From an uncultured Flavobacteriaceae bacterium (GTDB lineage: Bacteria > Bacteroidota > Bacteroidia > Flavobacteriales > Flavobacteriaceae), in NCBI GenBank assembly GCA_947500385.1, contig CANMSA010000028.1, positions 1 to 50,390 of the forward strand: 50,390 bases of DNA, read 5' to 3'. Below, in pieces: positions 24,218-34,001 of this stretch. Both the position numbers and the translations under genes were made by a program. The notes beneath the pieces are model-generated. The model saw only the letters and a list, made by a program, of their open reading frames with translations, was not told the origin of the DNA and ran no database searches. Position 1 is the first letter of the stretch. The number at the start of each line of letters is the position of its first letter.

Positions 24218-24973
24218 TTAAATGCGAACGGCAATCCCGTTTCTTTTTAAATCTTCTTTTAAATCCCCAATGGCGATTTCCTTAAAATGGAAAACACTTG
24301 CCGCCAGTGCCGCATCTGCCTTTCCTTTGGTAAAGGTATCTGAAAAATGTTGCATATTCCCTGCACCACCCGATGCAATGATCGGAATATTTAATTCGGT
24401 CGAAAGCCGGGCCAATGCTTCATTTGCAAAACCGTCTTTGGTACCATCATGGTCCATCGAAGTGAATAAAATCTCCCCTGCTCCGCGTTGTTCGACTTCC
24501 TTGGCCCATTCGAACAAATCCAACTCGGTAGGAACCTTACCTCCTACCAAATGTACCAGCCATTTTCCTGTCACCTGTTTTGCATCAATGGCCACCACAA
24601 TACACTGGGACCCAAATTTGGCGACCAGATCATTGATCAGTTGCGGATTCTTGACCGCGGATGAATTAATGGACACCTTATCCGCTCCGTTCTGCAATAG
24701 CCTATCAACATCTTCAACAGACGAAATACCACCACCCACCGTAAAGGGTATGTTCACTTTTTCGGCAACGCGATATACCAAATCTGCCAAGGTTTTCCGT
24801 TTTTGTTCTGTGGCCGAAATATCTAGAAACACCAACTCGTCGGCACCTTCCTTACTATATATTTCCGCAAGTTCAACGGGATCTCCCGCATCCCTTAAAT
24901 CAACGAAATTAACCCCTTTTACCGTGCGGCCATCTTTAATATCCAAACAAGGAATAATTCTTTTTGCCAGCAT
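24218..24973 (-). CDS. hisF: Imidazole glycerol phosphate synthase, cyclase subunit
   Basis: 251 residues, the standard length of this (beta/alpha)8 barrel. The start [19 protein letters not shown] carries catalytic D11. [12 protein letters not shown] contains the second catalytic Asp, and the phosphate-binding motifs VGGGISS, INSSAV and IIASGGAGN are present. It pairs with HisH to convert PRFAR plus glutamine-derived ammonia into imidazole glycerol phosphate and AICAR. hisH is six genes upstream in the operon rather than adjacent. Confidence 0.98.
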
Positions 24974-24999
24974 TTTTTTTTATTTAAAACGAATAGTAT

Positions 25000-25305
25000 C
25001 TATCTAAAAATCGGTTTCATAAACGACCGTTCATAACGGACTATACATCGGGTTTCCCTGGCGTATTCATAGGCGGCCTGACATTCATTGTCGGCTGCAC
25101 TTGCATTGCGATAATTTTCATACGCCGCCAAGGAATCAAAGCTAAAGAGGGCCGTGGCGATATCATTGGCTCCTTCATGTGGTAAAAAATATCCATGGTG
25201 GGTACCTCCAAACCGGTTCACCAGCGGTATCCACATTCTTGCATACTTTTCAAATTCGTTCACTTTAAACGGGTCGATTCTATATTTTAGATAACATGTG
25301 ATCAT
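25000..25305 (-). CDS. NIPSNAP-family protein
   Basis: 101 residues, a single ferredoxin-like alpha/beta domain of the NIPSNAP type: MITCYLKYRIDPFKVNEFEKYARMW, VNRFGGTHHGYFLPHEG, IATALFSFDSLAAYENYR. No signal peptide. Its start directly abuts the stop of the DUF1572 gene, so the two are co-expressed within the his operon. Biochemical role unknown; it has no known connection to histidine synthesis. Confidence 0.85.
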   Translation of the reverse strand: MITCYLKYRIDPFKVNEFEKYARMWIPLVNRFGGTHHGYFLPHEGANDIATALFSFDSLAAYENYRNASAADNECQAAYEYARETRCIVRYERSFMKPIFR

Positions 25306-25827
25306 TCAATCCAATTTATTTTTCACTTCAAGGTCTACGCCATCATAGAACCCGAGATCTTTGTTTTTAAGTTGTTTTACCCAAAAAGCGATTTGCCCCG
25401 TATGGTATGAATAATGTTCCACAACATGCATGATAATGCCGATACCTGAAAACGAATACCCTTGAACTTCCCGCTTTTTAGTCAATTGCCCCTCACTCGC
25501 CCCTTTAATTACCTCCTTAGCGGTCAACACCGTTTCTGAAAGTTTCGTAAGAAGTGTTTTTTTGTTATACCCTGACGTTACCGAAAACTCGCTATTTCTT
25601 TCCCGAATGTCCACAGTTTCTCCCAAGGAAGAAATGGCATATTGAGTGATATTGCCACATAAATGAAGGATCAGGTTGGCAATACTATTTAAAGAATCGT
25701 TTGGACGTTTCCAAAGTTCTTCTTCAGATATATGCTCCAAACTTGTATAAATCATGCGGGTACTCTCATCCATTCGGTACAGGGCATTCTCTACTATTTC
25801 CGAAATCAACTTTTCTGTTGCATTCAT
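25306..25827 (-). CDS. DinB-like / DUF1572 family protein
   Basis: 173 residues, all-helical. The DinB-type pattern is visible: [40 protein letters not shown] near the start and a C-terminal [20 protein letters not shown]. Histidines in the LILHL and EHYSYH helices fit the metal site of the DinB fold. It overlaps hisA by 4 bases and abuts the NIPSNAP gene, so it is embedded in the operon. Some DinB-fold enzymes are thiol-dependent transferases; its actual reaction is unknown. Confidence 0.85.
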
Positions 25828-26600
25828 GTGCTCAAGATATAGTTTTCCAATTGTTTTAAGCTGATATGGTTCTCATAGATCGCCTTTCCGATAATGGTTC
25901 CTTCACAGCCGATTTCGGCCAAGCGAGGCAATTCGTCAAAAGCGGAAATTCCACCGCTGGCAATCAGTTTCACCCCGGGCACCAGCGTATCTAAAACTCC
26001 ACCGGGGCCACCAGTGGTAGCATTCACCGCTGTTTCTTTCAATATTTTTTTATACAGGTCAAAGGAAGGTCCTTGAAGCATCCCATCCTTACTTATATCG
26101 GTACAGATGATATATTCGATTCCCTTTTTTTGATATTTTTGAATGAAGGGCACCAAGTCTTCCGTAGATTCTTCTTGCCAACCGGAAACCGCCACTTTTT
26201 CATCTAAGGCATCGGCCCCTAAAATAATCTTATCCGAACCATATTCCCTGATCCATGCACTAAAAGTGTTTTTATCCTTTACCGCAATACTCCCACCGGT
26301 GATCTGGTCGGCGCCACTTTCAAAGGCAATTCGCAAATCTTGATCGGTCTTAAGGCCGCCCCCGAAATCTATTTTTAAACGAGTTTTGGAAGCTATTTGC
26401 TCCAAGACCCGGTGGTTTACGATGTGCTTGGATTTTGCCCCGTCTAAATCTACCAAATGAAGGTATTCGATACCATGGGCCTCAAACTCTTTTGCCATCT
26501 CCAACGGATGCTCATTATAAATCTTTTTTGTATCATAGTCGCCCTTGGAAAGGCGCACGCATTTGCCCTCTATGATATCTATTGCAGGTATAATTCTCAT
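25824..26600 (-). CDS. hisA: ProFAR isomerase
   Basis: 258 residues from ATG 26600. A further in-frame start at 26642 would add 14 residues not seen in the family and overlap the GNAT gene. The barrel starts [20 protein letters not shown] with catalytic D8. [14 protein letters not shown] holds the second catalytic Asp, and [16 protein letters not shown] and KLIASGGIS bind the phosphates. It converts ProFAR to PRFAR, the step before HisHF. It is preceded by a GNAT gene (gap 8) and overlaps the DUF1572 gene. Confidence 0.98.
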
Positions 26601-26608
26601 TTTACTTT

Positions 26609-27034
26609 TTATAATAAGACCACTCGGTCGTTTGCCATCCATAATTCTGATTCCCCTATACGCTTGAAACCGTACTTTTCGTACATACCGTGGGCGTCTT
26701 TCGTTTTTAAGGCAAGTGTTTTTAAGTTCCGTACCAGTTGATGATCCATTATAAAGGACAGCAATTCTTTTCCATATCCTTTACCCTGGTGCGGTTCAAA
26801 AATGATCACGTCCATTAAGTTTCCGAATACCACCCCATCAGTGACCATGCGCGCAAACCCTATTTGTACGTTTGCACTGGAATACATGCCGAAACATAAG
26901 GAATTGGCAATAATGGTCTCTACCTGCTCAAAGGAGCGTTGACGCCCCCAATAGGAAACCGTACTTAAGTACTTATGGATTTTCGTAACGGACAACAACT
27001 TCTTATCCGTCGAAATATAACAGTTGTCTTTCAT
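26609..27034 (-). CDS. GNAT-family N-acetyltransferase
   Basis: 141 residues. It shows a complete GNAT core: [39 protein letters not shown], with the acetyl-CoA loop HQGKGYG, and [27 protein letters not shown] at the C-terminus. Substrate unknown. It starts inside the last codons of hisH (4-base overlap) and ends 8 bases before hisA, so it is a fixed member of this operon although it has no known role in histidine synthesis. Confidence 0.92.
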
Positions 27035-27615
27035 TGGATTTCCAAAAAATTTTTCAATATTCGCTCGCCGACATCACTGCTTTTTTCCGGGTGAAATTGG
27101 GTCCCGTAAAAATTTCCCTTTCCCAAGGCGGCACTGTAGGAAATACCATATTCACAGGTCGCGATGGTTGCTTCGCATACCGGCGCAAAAAAACTGTGCA
27201 CCAAGTAGATATAGTCATTGTTCGGTACTGCTTTGAATAACCCTGTTTTCAAGCTTGAAATTTGATTCCAACCAATTTGGGGCACTTTAAGCGTGTTTGA
27301 AAAACGCTTCACATCCACATCAAAAATACCAAGGCCTTTGGTATTCCCTTCTTCAGAGGAATTGCACATCAATTGCATTCCGAGACAGATACCCAATACG
27401 GGTTGTTTTAAAGTGGGAATCACCTCCTCTAGACCACTTTCGCGTAATTTCTTCATAGCGCTGCTTGCTTCCCCAACACCCGGAAAAATTACCTTGTCAG
27501 CAGCCCGTATCGTATCAACATCATGGGTTAAGATAGCTGTATACCCGAGTCGCTGTACCGCAAATTTGATACTTTGAATGTTTCCCGCCCCGTAATTAAT
27601 AATTACAATGTTCAT
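27031..27615 (-). CDS. hisH: Imidazole glycerol phosphate synthase, glutamine amidotransferase subunit
   Basis: 194 residues, a class I glutamine amidotransferase with nucleophile C77 in GICLGMQLM and the His/Glu pair H175/E177 in FHPEKSS. The oxyanion strand PGVG is at about 45-48. It supplies ammonia to HisF. A 66-base gap of simple-sequence character separates it from the four-helix-bundle gene upstream in the operon, much longer than the other junctions nearby. Confidence 0.98.
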   Translation of the reverse strand: MNIVIINYGAGNIQSIKFAVQRLGYTAILTHDVDTIRAADKVIFPGVGEASSAMKKLRESGLEEVIPTLKQPVLGICLGMQLMCNSSEEGNTKGLGIFDVDVKRFSNTLKVPQIGWNQISSLKTGLFKAVPNNDYIYLVHSFFAPVCEATIATCEYGISYSAALGKGNFYGTQFHPEKSSDVGERILKNFLEIQ

Positions 27616-28072
27616 GATTCAAGGTACAAGGTTTGAAGTGAGAAGTACAAAGTATTTTTTCTTTTGGAAATCATATTTCAATTATTTTCTATTCGCTTTT
27701 GAAGTCTTAATCGAGGCTACAATTATAGCTAGTAGCTCTTTTGATTCATTCAATAGGATTTGAATCTCACTTGTTTTACCTGCTTTAACTTCCAAAAAAA
27801 GTTCCAACCAGTACGCGGATTCATCTACTTCTTCTTCGACAATTTTTAGTTTATGAATAAAATCCGGAGTAGACTTTGCCCTCTGGGAAGCCCTATAATT
27901 TGCACCAGCACTACTTGAGCAACGTATTAATTGTCGTACCCAGGCATCTAGTTCCCGAGAATGTGGGATTTGAGAGCAAAATTTCCAACAGTCAACTGCA
28001 AACCTTTTTGTCCTTAATTTTAAATCTTGCCTTGGCATACTTTGTATTTTTTACCTAGTACTTTTTCCCTTT
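27616..28072 (-). repeat. Four-helix-bundle gene cassette flanked by short inverted repeats
   Basis: TACAAAGTAT at 27646-27655 recurs as its inverse complement at 28037-28046, bracketing the 118-codon gene between hisB and hisH. Both flanks are also rich in AAG/GTAC/AAGGT words (AAGGTACAAGGTTT on the left, AAAGTACTAGGTA on the right, read on the other strand). The arrangement suggests an inserted unit, but no transposase or target duplication is evident. Confidence 0.5.
27682..28038 (-). CDS. Four-helix bundle protein (23S rRNA intervening-sequence type)
   Basis: 118 residues. It matches the small four-helix-bundle family first described from intervening sequences of bacterial 23S rRNA genes: LKLRTKRFAVDCWKF at the start, then LIRCSSSAGANYRASQRAKSTPDFIHKLKIVEEEVDESAYWLELFLE and a last helix LLNESKELLAIIVASIKTSK. 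In Bacteroidota such genes are scattered through genomes and their role is not known. Here the gene sits between hisB and hisH with 34 and 66 bases on its sides. The right-hand inverted repeat runs into its start codon. Confidence 0.9.
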   Translation of the reverse strand: MPRQDLKLRTKRFAVDCWKFCSQIPHSRELDAWVRQLIRCSSSAGANYRASQRAKSTPDFIHKLKIVEEEVDESAYWLELFLEVKAGKTSEIQILLNESKELLAIIVASIKTSKANRK

Positions 28073-29209
28073 TTATAACATTCCCTTCGTACTTGGCAAT
28101 ACCATTTTTTCAACATCGCGCTTCACCGCCATTTTAATCGACTTGGCAAAGGCCTTAAAAATAGCTTCGATTTTATGGTGTTCGTTCGTGCCTTCCGCTT
28201 TGATATTTAAATTGGCTTTGGCCCCATCGGTAAACGATTTAAAAAAGTGAAAAAACATCTCGGTAGGCATCTCCCCAATTTTTTCCCGTTTGAATTCCGC
28301 TTCCCAAACCAACCAATTACGGCCCCCAAAATCTATCGCAACCTGCGCTAGGCAATCATCCATAGGCAAACAAAACCCATAGCGTTCTATTCCCAGTTTG
28401 TTGCCCAAGGCCCGGTGGAAGGTTTCACCCAAGGCTATGGCCGTATCTTCAATGGTATGGTGCTCATCTACTTCCAAATCCCCGACTACTTGTATATCCA
28501 GGTCCATTTGGCCATGTCGTGCCAATTGGTCCAACATATGATCAAAAAAGGCCAAACCGGTCTGGATGGTACTTTTACCCGTTCCGTCGAGATTGAGTTG
28601 GATATGAATAGCTGTTTCATTTGTTTTGCGGTGTATTTCCGCTGTGCGATCTTGTAACTTCAAAAACTCATAGATAGTTTCCCAATCGTTGTTTTCCAAC
28701 GCAATTACAGCATTCAGCGCCGCCCTGTCGACGGTAATTTCACCTGTGCCCAAATTCGTATCATCATTGATAAAAACGCCTTTTGCTCCCAGGTTTTTAG
28801 CCAATTCCATATCGGTGAGTCGGTCCCCGATGACAAAAGAATTCTGTAAATCGTACTCCTCGGAAAAATATTCGGTCAGTAGGCCCGTTCCAGGTTTTCG
28901 CGTATCGGCATTTTCATGTGGAAATGTACGATCCAGAAACACTTTGTCGAATATCACCCCTTCATTTTCAAATGATTTCATGATGAAGTTGTGCACAGGC
29001 CAAAAGGTATCTTCCGGAAAAACATCGGTTCCCAATCCATCTTGGTTCGTAATCATCACGAGTTCATAATCAAGTTCCTTGGCTATTTTACCTAAAAACG
29101 TAAATGCTTTTGGGTAAAAAATCATTTTTTCAAAGGCATCGATCTGTTCGTCTACGGTTTCTTTGATGATGGTGCCATCCCTATCGATAAAAAGTACTTT
29201 CTTTTTCAT
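28073..29209 (-). CDS. hisB: Bifunctional histidinol-phosphatase / imidazoleglycerol-phosphate dehydratase
   Basis: 378 residues. The N-terminal HAD phosphatase domain (about 1-165) has nucleophile D9 and D11 in [16 protein letters not shown] and the [14 protein letters not shown] motif. The C-terminal dehydratase domain (about 188-378) has [24 protein letters not shown] and a second metal-binding DHHK-like EHHKIEA. The zinc-binding Cys cluster of the E. coli phosphatase is absent: the aligned loop reads [14 protein letters not shown]. It catalyses the sixth and eighth steps of the pathway. Confidence 0.98.
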
Positions 29210-29235
29210 TATACTGCTTCCTTTTTTCTGTTCGG

Positions 29236-30291
29236 TTACCTGCTTTGGGTATCCAGCTGTTGCAACGTATCGATTAATTTTTTGTTTTCAATCTTGGTTC
29301 CTACCGTAAATCGCAGGGTGTTTTTACACAAGACTTGATTTGTTCTGTTTCGCACTACTACACCTTTGCTTAAAAGTTGTTGGTATCTGTTATTCGCATC
29401 ATCTACCTTCGCAAGTACAAAGTTGGCATCCGACGGGTATACTTTTGCCACAAAGGGAACCGCATTCAATGTTGCCACGAGCCGATCCTTTTCTGCTAGA
29501 ATGTTGCTGATCTCCTCGGTAATGGTATCGGCATCCGAAAGCCGTTTCAGGGCTCTTTCTTGCGTAAGTTCATTGACATTATATGGCGGTTTGATCTTGT
29601 TCAACACCGAAATAATTTCTGAGGAAGCAATGCAAATTCCTAACCGGATTCCCGCTAGACCATAGGCTTTTGACAGCGTTTGTGTTACCACTAAATTGGG
29701 ATATTGATCAATTTTGGAGGCCCAACTATCTCCAGGAGAAAAGTCGATATACGCTTCATCAATGACTACCAAACCACTGAAATTTCCCAGCAGTTCCTCA
29801 ATACCGCTGGTCTTAAAACTATTTCCGGTCGGATTGTTCGGGGAACAGATAAAAACCATTTTGGTTTGCGCATCTATTCGCTTTCCTATTTCGGGAATAT
29901 TGGGTTCGAAATCGTCGGTTAATACTACCTCTCGATTCTCAACGGCATTGACCCCCGCTAATACCTTGTACATCCCGTACGTTGGTGGAAGCGTGATAAT
30001 GTTGTCTTTTTGCGGTTCACAAAATGCCCTGAATAATAAATCCAGGACCTCGTCGCTGCCATTTCCCAATAACAAATTAGGGACTTCTACCCTTTTTGCC
30101 TTCGCCAACACCATTTTTAGGCTCCGTTGTTGCGGATCAGGGTAACGATTGACCCCATTTTCAAAGGGGTTTTCGTTCGCATCTAGAAATACCATCTTAG
30201 AACCGTCGGACACGTATTCGTCCCGGGCCGAGGAATACGGCCGAAGGCCCTTTACATTTTCCCTTATTATATTGTCTAAATTAAAGCTCAT
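29236..30291 (-). CDS. hisC: Histidinol-phosphate aminotransferase
   Basis: 351 residues, a fold-type I PLP enzyme. The PLP lysine is K208 in [14 protein letters not shown]. Other signatures are [26 protein letters not shown], the PNNPTGN loop (151-157) and [10 protein letters not shown] (175-184, with the PLP-ring Asp). It transfers an amino group from glutamate to imidazole acetol phosphate. It lies 26 bases before hisB and 40 bases after hisD. Confidence 0.98.
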
Positions 30292-30331
30292 TCCTAAACA
30301 TTGCTGATTGCTACTTTTTCAAAATGGAATT

Positions 30332-31621
30332 CTACGTATCCGACAAACTTTTTAATCGCAAACTCACTGCATTCTTGTGAGCTTGCAAGCCTTCCGCTTC
30401 GGCCATTACCTCGATGGCCTCCCCTATGTTCCGGATCCCTTCCTTGGAAATTTTCTGGAACGTCATACTCTTCATAAAACTATCTAAATTGACCCCGCTG
30501 TATTGTTTGGCGTATCCGTTTGTAGGCAACGTATGATTGGTACCCGAAGCATAATCACCTGCACTTTCGGGCGTGTAGTTACCAATAAAAACCGAACCGG
30601 CATTTTCGATGTTTGAAATAAAAAAATCTTCATTCTCTACGCAAATAATATAATGTTCCGGACCATATTCGTTGATCAATTCTACCGCAGTAGCCGCATC
30701 AGCTACATAAATAAGTTTACTGTTTTCAATAGCCTTTTCCGCAATCTCTTTACGGGGAAGCACACTCAGTTGTCTTGCTACTTCGTCTTCCACTGCCTCG
30801 ATCAGTTCCTTCGAGGTAGAGACCAGCAGAACCTGACTATCGACTCCGTGTTCGGCTTGGCTCAACAGATCAGACGCCACAAACGCGGCATTTGCAGAAT
30901 TATCCGCCACCACCAAAAGTTCACTTGGTCCGGCAGGCATATCGATGGCGACCCCATGTTTGGTCGCTAGTTGCTTGGCTACCGTTACATATTGGTTGCC
31001 AGGGCCAAAAATCTTATACACCTTGGGAATCGTCTCCGTTCCGAAGGTCATGCCCGCAATTGCCTGAATACCGCCTACTTTATAAATCTTGGTTATACCA
31101 CAAAGGTCTGCCGTGTACAAAATTGCCGGGTGAATGCTGCCATCGCTTGCCGGAGGGGAGCACAATACCACTTCCTTACAACCCGCGATCATCGCAGGTA
31201 CCGCTAACATCAAAATGGTAGAAAACAAGGGTGCCGTGCCTCCGGGGATATAGAGCCCCACCTTTTGAATGGGTCTTTTCTCCTGCCAGCAATGCACACC
31301 AATGGCAGTGGTCACCGCTATTGTTTCACCTAGCTGCGCTTTATGAAAGGCGGTAATATTCTGTTTCGCCAACGCAATGGCGTTTTGGAGTTCCTGAGAA
31401 ACCAGTTCTTTTGCCGTGGCAATCTCGGCATTCGAAACCGTCAATTCGCCCAAAGAGATACCATCGAACTTTTCAGTATACTTTTTCAATATAGGGTCCC
31501 CCTCCATTTTCACCTCCTCAAAAATTGCATTCACCGTGTCTTCGATCTCGGAAACGGATTGCGTTGGGCGTTTTAACAACGTATCCCAAGTAGCTCTTTG
31601 CGGATTATTGATCTTATTCAT
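30332..31621 (-). CDS. hisD: Histidinol dehydrogenase
   Basis: 429 residues, full length. NAD- and zinc-binding motifs are clear: VGLYIPGGTAPLFSTILMLA (121-140), GPGNQYVTVAKQLA (207-219), DMPAGPSELLVVAD (227-240), SQAEHG (254-259, zinc ligands), GPEHYIICVEN with the catalytic Glu/His pair E322-H323, and GDYASGTNHTLPT (355-367, zinc Asp). It oxidises histidinol to histidine in two NAD-dependent steps. Only 2 bases separate it from the upstream GNAT gene. Confidence 0.98.
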   Translation of the reverse strand: MNKINNPQRATWDTLLKRPTQSVSEIEDTVNAIFEEVKMEGDPILKKYTEKFDGISLGELTVSNAEIATAKELVSQELQNAIALAKQNITAFHKAQLGETIAVTTAIGVHCWQEKRPIQKVGLYIPGGTAPLFSTILMLAVPAMIAGCKEVVLCSPPASDGSIHPAILYTADLCGITKIYKVGGIQAIAGMTFGTETIPKVYKIFGPGNQYVTVAKQLATKHGVAIDMPAGPSELLVVADNSANAAFVASDLLSQAEHGVDSQVLLVSTSKELIEAVEDEVARQLSVLPRKEIAEKAIENSKLIYVADAATAVELINEYGPEHYIICVENEDFFISNIENAGSVFIGNYTPESAGDYASGTNHTLPTNGYAKQYSGVNLDSFMKSMTFQKISKEGIRNIGEAIEVMAEAEGLQAHKNAVSLRLKSLSDT

Positions 31622-31623
31622 GC

Positions 31624-32046
31624 TTACAGTTCTTTCTGATAGTGGTAGGCAACCATTTTATACCCTTGTTGTTCCCAGAAGCGTTGACCGGCTTTATTTT
31701 CAACATAGCAGTTTAACTCCGATGCGACGCAACCAAGAGATTTTCCATAATCGAAAATCCAGTTCATCAACTGTTGTCCAATCCCCTTGCCTTGATACTC
31801 TGGGCGTATGTATACATTATCGGGCTCCAAATGCTTTCCTACATAATATTTATTCAAAATCCACAACCCGGATATTCCTATCAAAGAATCTCCATCAAAA
31901 ACACCGATACAGTGGTAATTGGTTCGCAGCATTTCTTGCAGGCGTTCTTTCAGTACACCCTCGGGGATTTTTGGATTCAAAGCCCTCCATAATGGTATAA
32001 TTGTTTCCATTTTGTCTTTCTCGATAAAGCGAATAGTTGGTTCCAT
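31624..32046 (-). CDS. GNAT-family N-acetyltransferase
   Basis: 140 residues with a full GNAT signature: IGVFDGDSLIGISGLWI, PDNVYIRPEYQGKGIGQQLMNWIFDYGKSLGCVASELNCYVENKAGQRFWEQQGYKMVAY. The acetyl-CoA loop is QGKGIG. It lies between hisG (gap 29) and hisD (gap 2). It is a different GNAT subgroup from the one before hisA, so the two are not a recent duplication. Substrate unknown. Confidence 0.92.
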   Translation of the reverse strand: MEPTIRFIEKDKMETIIPLWRALNPKIPEGVLKERLQEMLRTNYHCIGVFDGDSLIGISGLWILNKYYVGKHLEPDNVYIRPEYQGKGIGQQLMNWIFDYGKSLGCVASELNCYVENKAGQRFWEQQGYKMVAYHYQKEL

Positions 32047-32075: not shown

Positions 32076-32933
32076 TTAGAGAACCATTTTTTCAATGGGG
32101 CATACAAGAATCCCCTCTGCACCTGCTTGTTTTAACTCATCGATCACTTCCCAGAAAGTGTCTTTGTTGATAACCGTATGTACCGAGCTCCAACCTTCTT
32201 CAGCGAGCGGTAAGACGGTAGGGCTGCGCATCCCTGGTAACAACTCCAAAATACGTGCTAACTTCTCATTTGGGGCATTCAACAGTACATACTTGGATTG
32301 TCGCGCCTGCAAGACCGATTGTATGCGAAACTGTAATCGCTTTAAAATCGCCTTTCGTTCTTCCGATATTTTCGGGGACACCGCCAACACGGCTTCACTT
32401 TTTAGCATCACCTCCACCTCTTTCAGGTTATTTTTGAAAAGGGTACTGCCACTGGATACGATATCACATATGGCATCTGCAAGGCCAATATTGGGGGCGA
32501 TCTCGACCGATCCATTAATAATATGCAAATCTGCATGTACTCCTTTTTCCTTTAGGTATTGCTTTACGGTATTTGGATAGGAAGTGGCAATCCGTTTTCC
32601 CTCAAAATCTTTTACCGATTGGTACGCAACTCCTTTCGGTACCGCCAATGAAACTTTGCATTTCGAAAATCCCAGCTTTGTGGCGATGCTGATATCCGCT
32701 CCCTTTTCAATTAGGACGTTCTCGCCTATAATTGCGATATCTACAACCCCATCTCTAAGGTATTGGGGAATATCCCCGTTTCTTAGATAAAATACTTCCA
32801 AGGGGAAATTACGGGAGGCCGCTTTTAGTTGGTCTTTTCCATTGTCGATCGAAATACCGCAATTTTTAAGGATGGAAAGCGACTCTTCATTGAGTCTTCC
32901 TGATTTCTGAATGGCTATTCTAATTTTTGTCAT
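32076..32933 (-). CDS. hisG: ATP phosphoribosyltransferase, long form
   Basis: 285 residues, the long form with a C-terminal regulatory domain (about 210-285, LLPGMRSPTVLPLAEEGWSSVHTVI). That domain mediates histidine feedback inhibition in characterised HisG proteins. Catalytic-domain signatures are IRIAIQKSGRLNEESLSIL, the VVDIAIIGENVLIEKGAD loop and the PRPP-binding ADAICDIVSSGSTLFKNNL. It catalyses the committed first step, ATP plus PRPP to PR-ATP. It is the first structural gene of the operon, downstream of the attenuator at 32983-33101. Confidence 0.98.
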   Translation of the reverse strand: MTKIRIAIQKSGRLNEESLSILKNCGISIDNGKDQLKAASRNFPLEVFYLRNGDIPQYLRDGVVDIAIIGENVLIEKGADISIATKLGFSKCKVSLAVPKGVAYQSVKDFEGKRIATSYPNTVKQYLKEKGVHADLHIINGSVEIAPNIGLADAICDIVSSGSTLFKNNLKEVEVMLKSEAVLAVSPKISEERKAILKRLQFRIQSVLQARQSKYVLLNAPNEKLARILELLPGMRSPTVLPLAEEGWSSVHTVINKDTFWEVIDELKQAGAEGILVCPIEKMVL

Positions 32934-32982: not shown

Positions 32983-33015
32983 AAAAACAAAACCCGCTTG
33001 ATTTCTCAAACGGGT
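32983..33015 (-). terminator. Attenuator terminator of the his operon
   Basis: Read on the minus strand, ACCCGTTTGA (33015-33006), loop GAAA, TCAAGCGGGT (33001-32992) form a 10-bp stem with one G-U pair and a stable GNRA loop. TTTGTTTTT (32991-32983) follows directly. This is a textbook intrinsic terminator, 50 bases before the hisG start and 32 bases after the leader peptide stop. Confidence 0.88.
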
Positions 33016-33061
33016 CGTACATTATGTTGTAATACTACAATACACTTTTACCTCGCTTGAG
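33005..33061 (-). promoter_or_regulatory. Antiterminator pairing of the his attenuator
   Basis: On the minus strand, CTCAAGCGAGGT (33061-33050), which lies over the last codons and stop of the leader peptide, can pair with ACCCGTTTGAG (33015-33005), the 5' arm of the terminator: eight consecutive pairs (one G-U), then GGT/ACC beyond a one-base bulge. The two structures are mutually exclusive. A small hairpin TTGTA-GTAT-TACAA lies between the arms. Confidence 0.8.
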
Positions 33062-33101
33062 CGCAGTGGTAAAAATGATGGTGTACATTGATAGTTCTCA
33101 T
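33048..33101 (-). CDS. hisL: Histidine operon leader peptide
   Basis: A 17-codon frame, MRTINVHHHFYHCAQAR, encoded just before the terminator. It has four His codons within six (codons 7, 8, 9, 12). A ribosome short of charged His-tRNA would stall there and leave the antiterminator arm (33061-33050) free. A ribosome reaching the stop would cover that arm and let the terminator form. This is the logic of the enterobacterial his leader. The gene symbol is used by analogy; the peptide has no sequence similarity requirement beyond its His run. Confidence 0.85.
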   Translation of the reverse strand: MRTINVHHHFYHCAQAR

Positions 33102-33188
33102 TATGGTGTAAAAATAAAACGTATTCTTGATTTATCAAAAGAATAGTTTCAAATTCAACAAAACTTTTAATGCTGGTTAGGTTCTATG

Positions 33189-34001
33189 CTAGTTATTCCC
33201 CAATATCAAAGGTAAACCTGCATCTCCACTACCCACGATCACCACTTTGGCATTTGGTGATTGTGACAGCTTTAAAGTCGCATCGATTCCCTTGTCCTGC
33301 AAAATTTTATCCGTCAAGGAAGCACTTAGAATTCTGTTGGCATCCGCTTTTCCCTGGGCTTCGATCGTTACCTTTTGTGCTTCTTTTTCGGCAGTGACCA
33401 AACGGAACTCGTACTCCAGTGATTCTTGTTCTTGTTTTAGTTTTCCTTCAATCGCGTCTTTAATCGTCGGAGGGAGTTTTACATCTTCCACCAAGACCCT
33501 TTTAACGTTTAGGAATTGACCGCTTAATTCATTCCTAACCTCTTCTAATATTTCTTGCTCAATTACGTCTCGTTTACTGGAATACAGTTGTTCGGGAGTG
33601 TACCGCCCTACCACACTTCTAGCGGCGGCATTCACGGCCGGGTCTAACAGTTCCACTATGTAGTCTTCACCTTTTGTTTTGATCAAGTTTCCCAAATTTG
33701 AGTATTCGGGTTCAAACCAGATGGTTCCGTTTACCTTCACCTCAAGGCCGTTTACAGAGAGTACGTTCATCTCATCAGAAATCGATTGTTGTCTCACCTT
33801 GTGTATCAACATATCATTCCAAGGAGCAACAATATGCCAACCCTCCCCATAGGTTTGATCGGTTACGATACCGCCTGCAGCGGGTTTAAAAAGCACTCCT
33901 CCTTCACCTGGACCAATCTTCACGATTGTTCGGCTAATGGTGAACACGAGTATAATTAAAATAAAAATAGATGGAAGGGCAATTTTTGGTAATTTATCCA
34001 T
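33189..34001 (-). CDS. Prohibitin / SPFH-domain membrane protein
   Basis: 270 residues. One N-terminal membrane anchor (about 8-28) is followed by the SPFH/prohibitin domain: VKIGPGEGGVLFKPAAGGI, YGEGWHIVAPWNDMLIHKVRQQ and VNGTIWFEP. A helical region (about 175-225, KLKQEQESLEYEFRLVTAEKEAQKVTIEAQGKADANR) is likely to form a coiled coil for ring assembly. Prohibitin-like proteins scaffold membrane microdomains and often act on membrane proteases. It lies 12 bases after the VWA membrane protein gene and is probably co-transcribed with it. Confidence 0.92.
   Translation of the reverse strand: MDKLPKIALPSIFILIILVFTISRTIVKIGPGEGGVLFKPAAGGIVTDQTYGEGWHIVAPWNDMLIHKVRQQSISDEMNVLSVNGLEVKVNGTIWFEPEYSNLGNLIKTKGEDYIVELLDPAVNAAARSVVGRYTPEQLYSSKRDVIEQEILEEVRNELSGQFLNVKRVLVEDVKLPPTIKDAIEGKLKQEQESLEYEFRLVTAEKEAQKVTIEAQGKADANRILSASLTDKILQDKGIDATLKLSQSPNAKVVIVGSGDAGLPLILGNN

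Follow-up and report, generated by a model that had tools for sequence, protein, structure and literature searches.

The window analysed here, a stretch of 50,390 nucleotides from an uncultured marine Flavobacteriaceae bacterium with a genome of 6.03 Mb, carries a presumed his operon on its minus strand, headed by hisG (Table 1). Pfam matches give the gene order hisG, hisD, hisC, hisB, hisH and hisA, and hisF was named by eye; by hisG, the named neighbours of the source organism are Maribacter algarum, Pelagihabitans pacificus and Zobellia uliginosa. Interspersed among the his genes are two genes for GNAT acetyltransferases and one for a 23S rRNA intervening-sequence-type protein (26612-27034, 27685-28038 and 31627-32046). 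A Band_7 gene (33189-34001) lies upstream on the same strand, and the region between it and hisG holds a short reading frame followed by a stem with a T-tract.

Table 1. Features of the hisG leader region and of the genes behind it, numbered by position in the window.
Feature	Position	Strand	Basis
Predicted -33 element TTTG, 19 nt before the -7 box	33136..33139	-	sequence, motif scan (TTTG 17-21 nt before box)
Predicted -7 box TATTTTTA, 5 of 6 positions of the sigma-A consensus TAnnTTTG	33109..33116	-	motif scan
Leader peptide gene, 17 codons (MRTINVHHHFYHCAQAR, then stop)	33048..33101	-	sequence; kept in relatives
Conserved run of His control codons 7-9 (CAC CAT CAT)	33075..33083	-	sequence and comparison of leaders
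Strand 1 of 1:2 stem (CATTTTTACC; His codon 9 to codon 12)	33068..33077	-	fold; pairing in relatives
Antiterminator arm A (CTCAAGCGAGGT; codons 14-17 and first base of stop)	33050..33061	-	A:B pairing in relatives
Strand 2 of 1:2 stem (GGTAAAAGTG; last codon, stop, bases after)	33043..33052	-	fold, covariation, tree
Arm B, common to antiterminator (A:B) and terminator (B:C)	33005..33016	-	folding, terminator scan, covariation
Arm C, 3' side of terminator	32991..33001	-	pairing and two-sided changes in relatives
T-tract of terminator	32983..32992	-	sequence, terminator scan
hisG, first gene of presumed his operon	32076..32933	-	Pfam HisG and HisG_C
Rest of presumed operon: GNAT, hisD, hisC, hisB, 23S rRNA IVP-type protein, hisH, GNAT, hisA, ORF, hisF	24218..32046	-	Pfam; hisF by eye

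The first-pass annotation had read a 17-codon frame with His at codons 7, 8, 9 and 12, and the minus strand from 33101 to 33048 reads exactly so. The stem behind it (33016-32991) has 11 pairs including a G-T, a GAAA loop and a T-tract that reaches to 32983; loop and T-tract had been described correctly, and the length of 10 bp given earlier becomes 11 pairs when the G-T is counted. Folded alone the terminator reaches -16.7 kcal/mol (z -5.6), the whole leader region folds with a z of -4.9, and in neither case was any of 200 shuffles as good. The terminator tops the list of 9 terminator-like sites between 25000 and 36000, a total not above that of shuffles (mean 12.0), so that the terminator scan proves nothing by itself. 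A search of the genome with one exact pattern found no second use of the terminator sequence. Once arm C is omitted, 33061-33050 pairs with 33016-33005 with one bulged A (z -2.45, 2 of 200 shuffles as good), and the proposal of an antiterminator arm over the last leader codons, complementary to the 5' arm of the terminator, thus holds in the window as it does in relatives. The fold contains a further stem of 10 pairs, between the stretch from His codon 9 to codon 12 and the region of the stop codon, which occupies the place of the 1:2 stem that E. coli-type his attenuators also have. The earlier statement that all parts are placed as in the enterobacterial model was right for terminator and antiterminator and had overlooked this stem.

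Upstream regions of hisG were collected from 198 loci of relatives, giving 189 regions distinct over the last 250 nt and 180 that differ between leader and terminator. In 185 of the 189 regions hisG is preceded, within 300 nt, by a short frame that has three or more His in four codons, as compared with 3/189 reverse complements, 3/567 dinucleotide shuffles and 0/79 hisG interiors. The family sample alone comprised 199 genomes, 166 of them with hisG, from which 110 were used (the 30 best matches and 80 hand-picked among the matches listed); here the frame was found in 107, and the other three (L107, L130 and L195) have a two-His leader in the same place instead. The geometry of the leader is fixed: in 172 of 188 leaders the His run starts at codon 7, in 173 it is three or four positions long, and in 183 exactly eight codons lie between its final His and the stop (L188 was left out of these counts, and seven leaders whose stop is displaced were measured to the aligned position of the stop). 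Control by four His codons, as claimed at first, does not survive this comparison. The conserved control codons are 7-9 only, and His 12 lies outside the run, with His at that position in just 6 of the 188 leaders. With the usual footprint, a ribosome that has codon 9 in the A site would reach to just before arm A, and one at codon 12 would cover part of arm A.

In six loci (L025, L026, L053, L095, L166 and L189; five distinct regions and perhaps three events) a stop replaces the Gln codon, so that the peptide ends at 14 or 15 residues, and arm A continues behind it. As judged from these loci, the end of the leader is held by the RNA and not by the peptide, since they lose the end of the peptide yet keep arm A.

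The three helices were scored on an alignment of 64 diverse regions (A1), chosen at less than 86% identity and with L188 and L190 left out by hand, against 500 shuffles, a control that leaves relatedness in, so that related sequences can exceed the shuffles without structure. With this in mind, the terminator B:C is paired in 99.9% of cells, with two-sided changes in 6 of 11 pairs, and none of the 500 shuffles was as high on any of the five measures. The antiterminator A:B is paired in 94.0% of cells, where slid controls reach at most 53.4%; two-sided changes occur in 3 of 11 pairs (four cells), with 0 to 11 of the 500 shuffles as high depending on the measure. A His run kept together with compensatory changes in both alternative stems is what the first-pass annotation had proposed to look for in relatives. 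The 1:2 stem is paired in 73.7% of cells (at most 54.5% when slid) and unpaired in 26%, with 40 two-sided cells where 18.1 were expected; on three of the five measures none of the 500 shuffles was as high, and on the pair- and type-count measures 266 and 231 were. One of its pairs joins a base of the leader to the middle base of the stop codon and is U-A in 24 sequences and C-G in 17. By these counts the 1:2 stem covaries, less strictly than the terminator and the antiterminator; some members are without it, and its role in what follows is conditional. RNAalifold predicts the terminator only on the same alignment, and the A:B and 1:2 helices therefore rest on counts for named structures.

Other measures bear on the same helices. 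When arms were permuted among 188 sequences, own partners were better both for 1:2 (-7.8 versus -6.0 kcal/mol) and for A:B (-13.5 versus -13.0), with none of 200 permutations as good in either case. On a hisG tree of 109 sequences the 1:2 stem shows nine double compensations (0-7 in slid controls) and 65 single breaks, the terminator three double compensations and no break, and A:B no double compensation and 21 single breaks. Arm B is nearly frozen, being identical over 11 bases in 129 of 189 regions, which is expected because this strand has two partners; in one leader (L135), where B is altered, A and C carry changes to match. Comparison of the relatives thus establishes, at the level of sequence, the parts of the element, their fixed spacing, their conservation and covariation, and the competition of A and C for B.

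A box with at least 5 of 6 positions of TAnnTTTG precedes the leader AUG in 188/188 leaders and is present in 84/188 control stretches, and in 96 of the 188, the window included, 7-8 nt separate the best box from the AUG. The -7 box is located at -12 to -5 according to PMC9723704, which would place the start of transcription of the window's leader at about 33104; the predicted 5' UTRs are then some 3-4 nt long, and about 3 nt in the window. In Flavobacterium, RNAs that are leaderless or have very short leaders are described as a minority (PMC9723704, PMC6847099). The window has an A at -3, and so do 54% of the 188 leaders; PMC6847099 gives this base as favourable for F. johnsoniae.

A run of His codons stands before a his gene, an intrinsic terminator lies between the leader and the first gene, the antiterminator shares a strand with the terminator and would lie under a ribosome at the stop codon, and a 1:2 stem can form when the leader is not translated. 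We consider it very likely that the element is a ribosome-mediated transcription attenuator of the his operon, the response to histidine itself being inferred by comparison. In support of this interpretation, which was that of the first-pass annotation, stand the conserved leader, terminator and antiterminator; that annotation has to be amended in the number of control codons, in the overlooked stem and in leaving open whether such an element was described for this group. We propose that transcription would begin a few bases 5' of the leader AUG. When charged tRNA-His is short, a ribosome would stall at His codons 7-9, covering strand 1 and leaving arm A free; A would capture B once B is made, B:C would come too late and RNA polymerase would continue into hisG. 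When histidine is plentiful, the ribosome would reach the stop codon and cover A, and B:C would end transcription. If the leader is not translated, the 1:2 stem, which has three bases in common with A, would keep A in its loop and termination would be favoured.

This switch was folded with the bases under the ribosome kept unpaired. Before C exists, A:B forms at a mean over 187 sequences of 0.75 with a stalled ribosome, 0.41 with none and 0.00 with a ribosome at the stop; the values for the window are 0.89, 0.43 and 0.00. The 0.41 in the absence of a ribosome means that the protection afforded by 1:2 is partial in the folding model. In full-length folding the terminator B:C prevails in each of the three states, with means of at least 0.94, and the switch would thus have to be kinetic, A:B being formed before C is made. 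Such a mechanism would imply that translation follows transcription closely enough to control it, in a class that rarely uses Shine-Dalgarno initiation.

The attenuator class recurs in many families of the Bacteroidia, where little of it has been described so far. A survey of other families covered 197 genomes, 89 with hisG and 82 of these outside the family, of which 80 from 33 families were used (G249 and G219 were left out). By a criterion of at least three His in six codons of a short frame, a His leader stands before hisG in 71 of the 80 loci and in 28 of the 33 families, as compared with 3/80 reverse complements and 17/400 shuffles, the latter rate corresponding to about 3 in 80 expected by chance; nine loci are without such a leader, and some of the 71, with rare start codons or long frames, are doubtful. 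A terminator was detected in 49 of the 71 loci, mostly of a sequence other than that in the window, and the 22 without one were excluded from the pairing test. In the 49, arm A pairs with its own B at -12.4 kcal/mol versus -9.9 with permuted B (sd 0.34; 0/500 permutations). B arms from other families pair equally well in a median share of 0.22, and this share is 0.1 or less in only 17 of the 49 loci, a weak specificity between families explained by the GGCTTACC-like core that many of the terminators have in common. Ten loci of two families (L308-L313 in f41; L264-L266 and L268 in f5) have a His leader before hisG and no terminator by the thresholds of the scan; their stems may be weaker and AT-rich, or the read-out may be of another kind.

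A model (R1) built from A1, with the window included, scores the window's leader at 113 bits in its own genome and the next match at 36.5; none of the seven further matches in this genome (at most 36.5 bits) has a His run in any short frame. From the 30 best matches of R1 across 395 genomes of the class, the 16 outside the family, along with one inside it (L236), were examined; all 16 score at least 65 bits and each lies before an ORF with a HisG start, as judged by eye. R1 has a match at E up to 0.1 in 241 of the 395 genomes, and the many weak matches across the class are probably generic terminators. One scenario, which we put forward tentatively and with rather less than even confidence, is that His attenuation by leader peptide is an old trait of the Bacteroidia that most families have retained at hisG, although its RNA sequence has been exchanged several times. 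In the clade of the window, translation of the leader would then begin on an RNA with hardly any 5' UTR, some 3 nt before the AUG, the first ribosome loading at the 5' end without a Shine-Dalgarno sequence and keeping pace with RNA polymerase. Attenuation of this kind would extend a classic mechanism, best known from the Proteobacteria, to most sampled families of the Bacteroidia.

Other explanations of the element have to be set against these data. Terminators follow many genes, and the Band_7 gene on the same strand ends about 170 nt before the stem, so the hairpin could be a plain terminator of that gene and the His frame coincidental. However, the His run, the fixed distance to the stop and the complementarity of arm A all recur in relatives; with a His frame in 185 of 189 regions as against 3 of 189 reverse complements, and a promoter-like box before every one of 188 leaders as against 84 control stretches, a terminator of this kind is very improbable. 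We regard it as similarly hard to believe that the leader encodes a small functional peptide to which the RNA structures are secondary. A peptide ending in QA[RSKN] is common over the family, as such a function would have it, but this ending is accounted for by the likeness of arm A to the C arm of the terminator; residues 2-6 vary among relatives, and the six loci with a stop at the Gln codon keep the RNA arm.

Attenuation could also act mainly through the translation of hisG or through Rho and not through an intrinsic terminator, and the 22 of 71 loci in other families for which the scan used gave no terminator may be of this type. In the window itself a T-ended stem is present, and a permissive scan (a stem with at least five T in the 12-base window at its end) found one in 189/189 Flavobacteriaceae regions, that of L059 in the wrong register; these stems lie mostly 40-60 nt before the hisG match, so that the start of hisG is not covered, and a main role for translation of hisG or Rho is unlikely here. 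A conserved, structured 5' element could in principle be a metabolite- or protein-binding riboswitch or a T-box, and weak Rfam matches do appear at E up to 10, such as L10_leader with 22 bits (cut-off 44) and Thr_leader with 12.3 (cut-off 55). All Rfam matches in the window stay below the cut-offs of their families, however, neither a riboswitch nor a T-box is among the nine weak matches, and the His frame would be left unexplained; the probability of such an element is close to nil. We therefore retain the reading as a ribosome-mediated attenuator.

No study devoted to his attenuation in Bacteroidota was among the literature matches listed. A 2004 survey by Vitreschak and others reportedly names some attenuators in Bacteroidetes/Chlorobi, and may hold earlier predictions. 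Such attenuation is not undescribed in this group, a point that the first-pass annotation had left open: work on Flavobacterium psychrophilum in 2021 already reports clues of leader-peptide attenuation at amino-acid operons and a structured 5' element of hisG, conserved in other genera and without a hit in Rfam (PMC9723704). The main-text section describes no His leader, arms or covariation for hisG, and its supplement may have details (PMC9723704). The window's element is likely homologous to the published one, since both concern the same gene in the same bacterial family. The his attenuator of E. coli and other Proteobacteria (RF00514) likewise has a short leader with a His run and alternative terminator and antiterminator, and follows the same logic (as treated in PMC9413887). 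In contrast to RF00514, the window's element has its three conserved control codons for His midway along a leader of 17 codons, a very short predicted 5' UTR and arm A inside the loop of 1:2; RF00514 is absent from the matches of the window region listed at E up to 10, and no sequence relation was found. The attenuators of His leaders in Firmicutes, a different phylum, have three to five consecutive His codons with a terminator and an antiterminator before his operons, and RF00514 was likewise not found there, according to the text of PMC9413887. The word Bacteroidetes is absent from the main text of that paper, and the main text of PMC2965389 has no word starting with Bacteroid. An account of the his genes in the superphylum of the Bacteroidota mentions attenuation a single time in its text, with regard to enterobacteria (PMC8305728). 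Leader-like small frames are reported from Bacteroides (PMC7366714), and the Bacteroid-trp leader RF01692, listed among RNAs in the pertinent section of PMC2864571, is also a peptide-leader RNA of a biosynthetic operon in Bacteroidota; it senses Trp, and the his leader does not match it. The principle is therefore textbook, the kind known and the element noticed before; the present analysis adds the anatomy of the element, with the 1:2 stem, its covariation and its spread over the class.

Further leaders of biosynthetic genes were recognized by eye in the same genome, each followed by a terminator: a Trp-rich frame before trpE (MNNLNINTWWWYNSRNKS; L317), an Ile/Leu/Val-rich one before one of three ilvD-type genes (MKTIALIVILSLVVP; L319) and a Phe/Tyr-rich one before pheA (MIKQYFYNGFYFYFFFRSETGLS; L322). 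The trpE leader scores 48 bits to the Rfam family Bacteroid-trp (cut-off 49) and the pheA leader 31.3 bits to Phe_leader (cut-off 55); no leader was seen by eye before the other two ilvD-type genes or a second trpE-like gene. The set of his, trp, ilv and phe leaders from one genome would serve as a reporter of coupling in Bacteroidota, and the alignment of hisG leaders could become an Rfam family.

A hairpin considered between the stop codon and arm B (alignment columns 71-101) was not supported, with 71 to 275 of 500 shuffles as high. The stretch between the leader stop and the terminator (33047-33017) is partly conserved across the family, around TGTATTG and AACATA, and is possibly a pause site for RNA polymerase.
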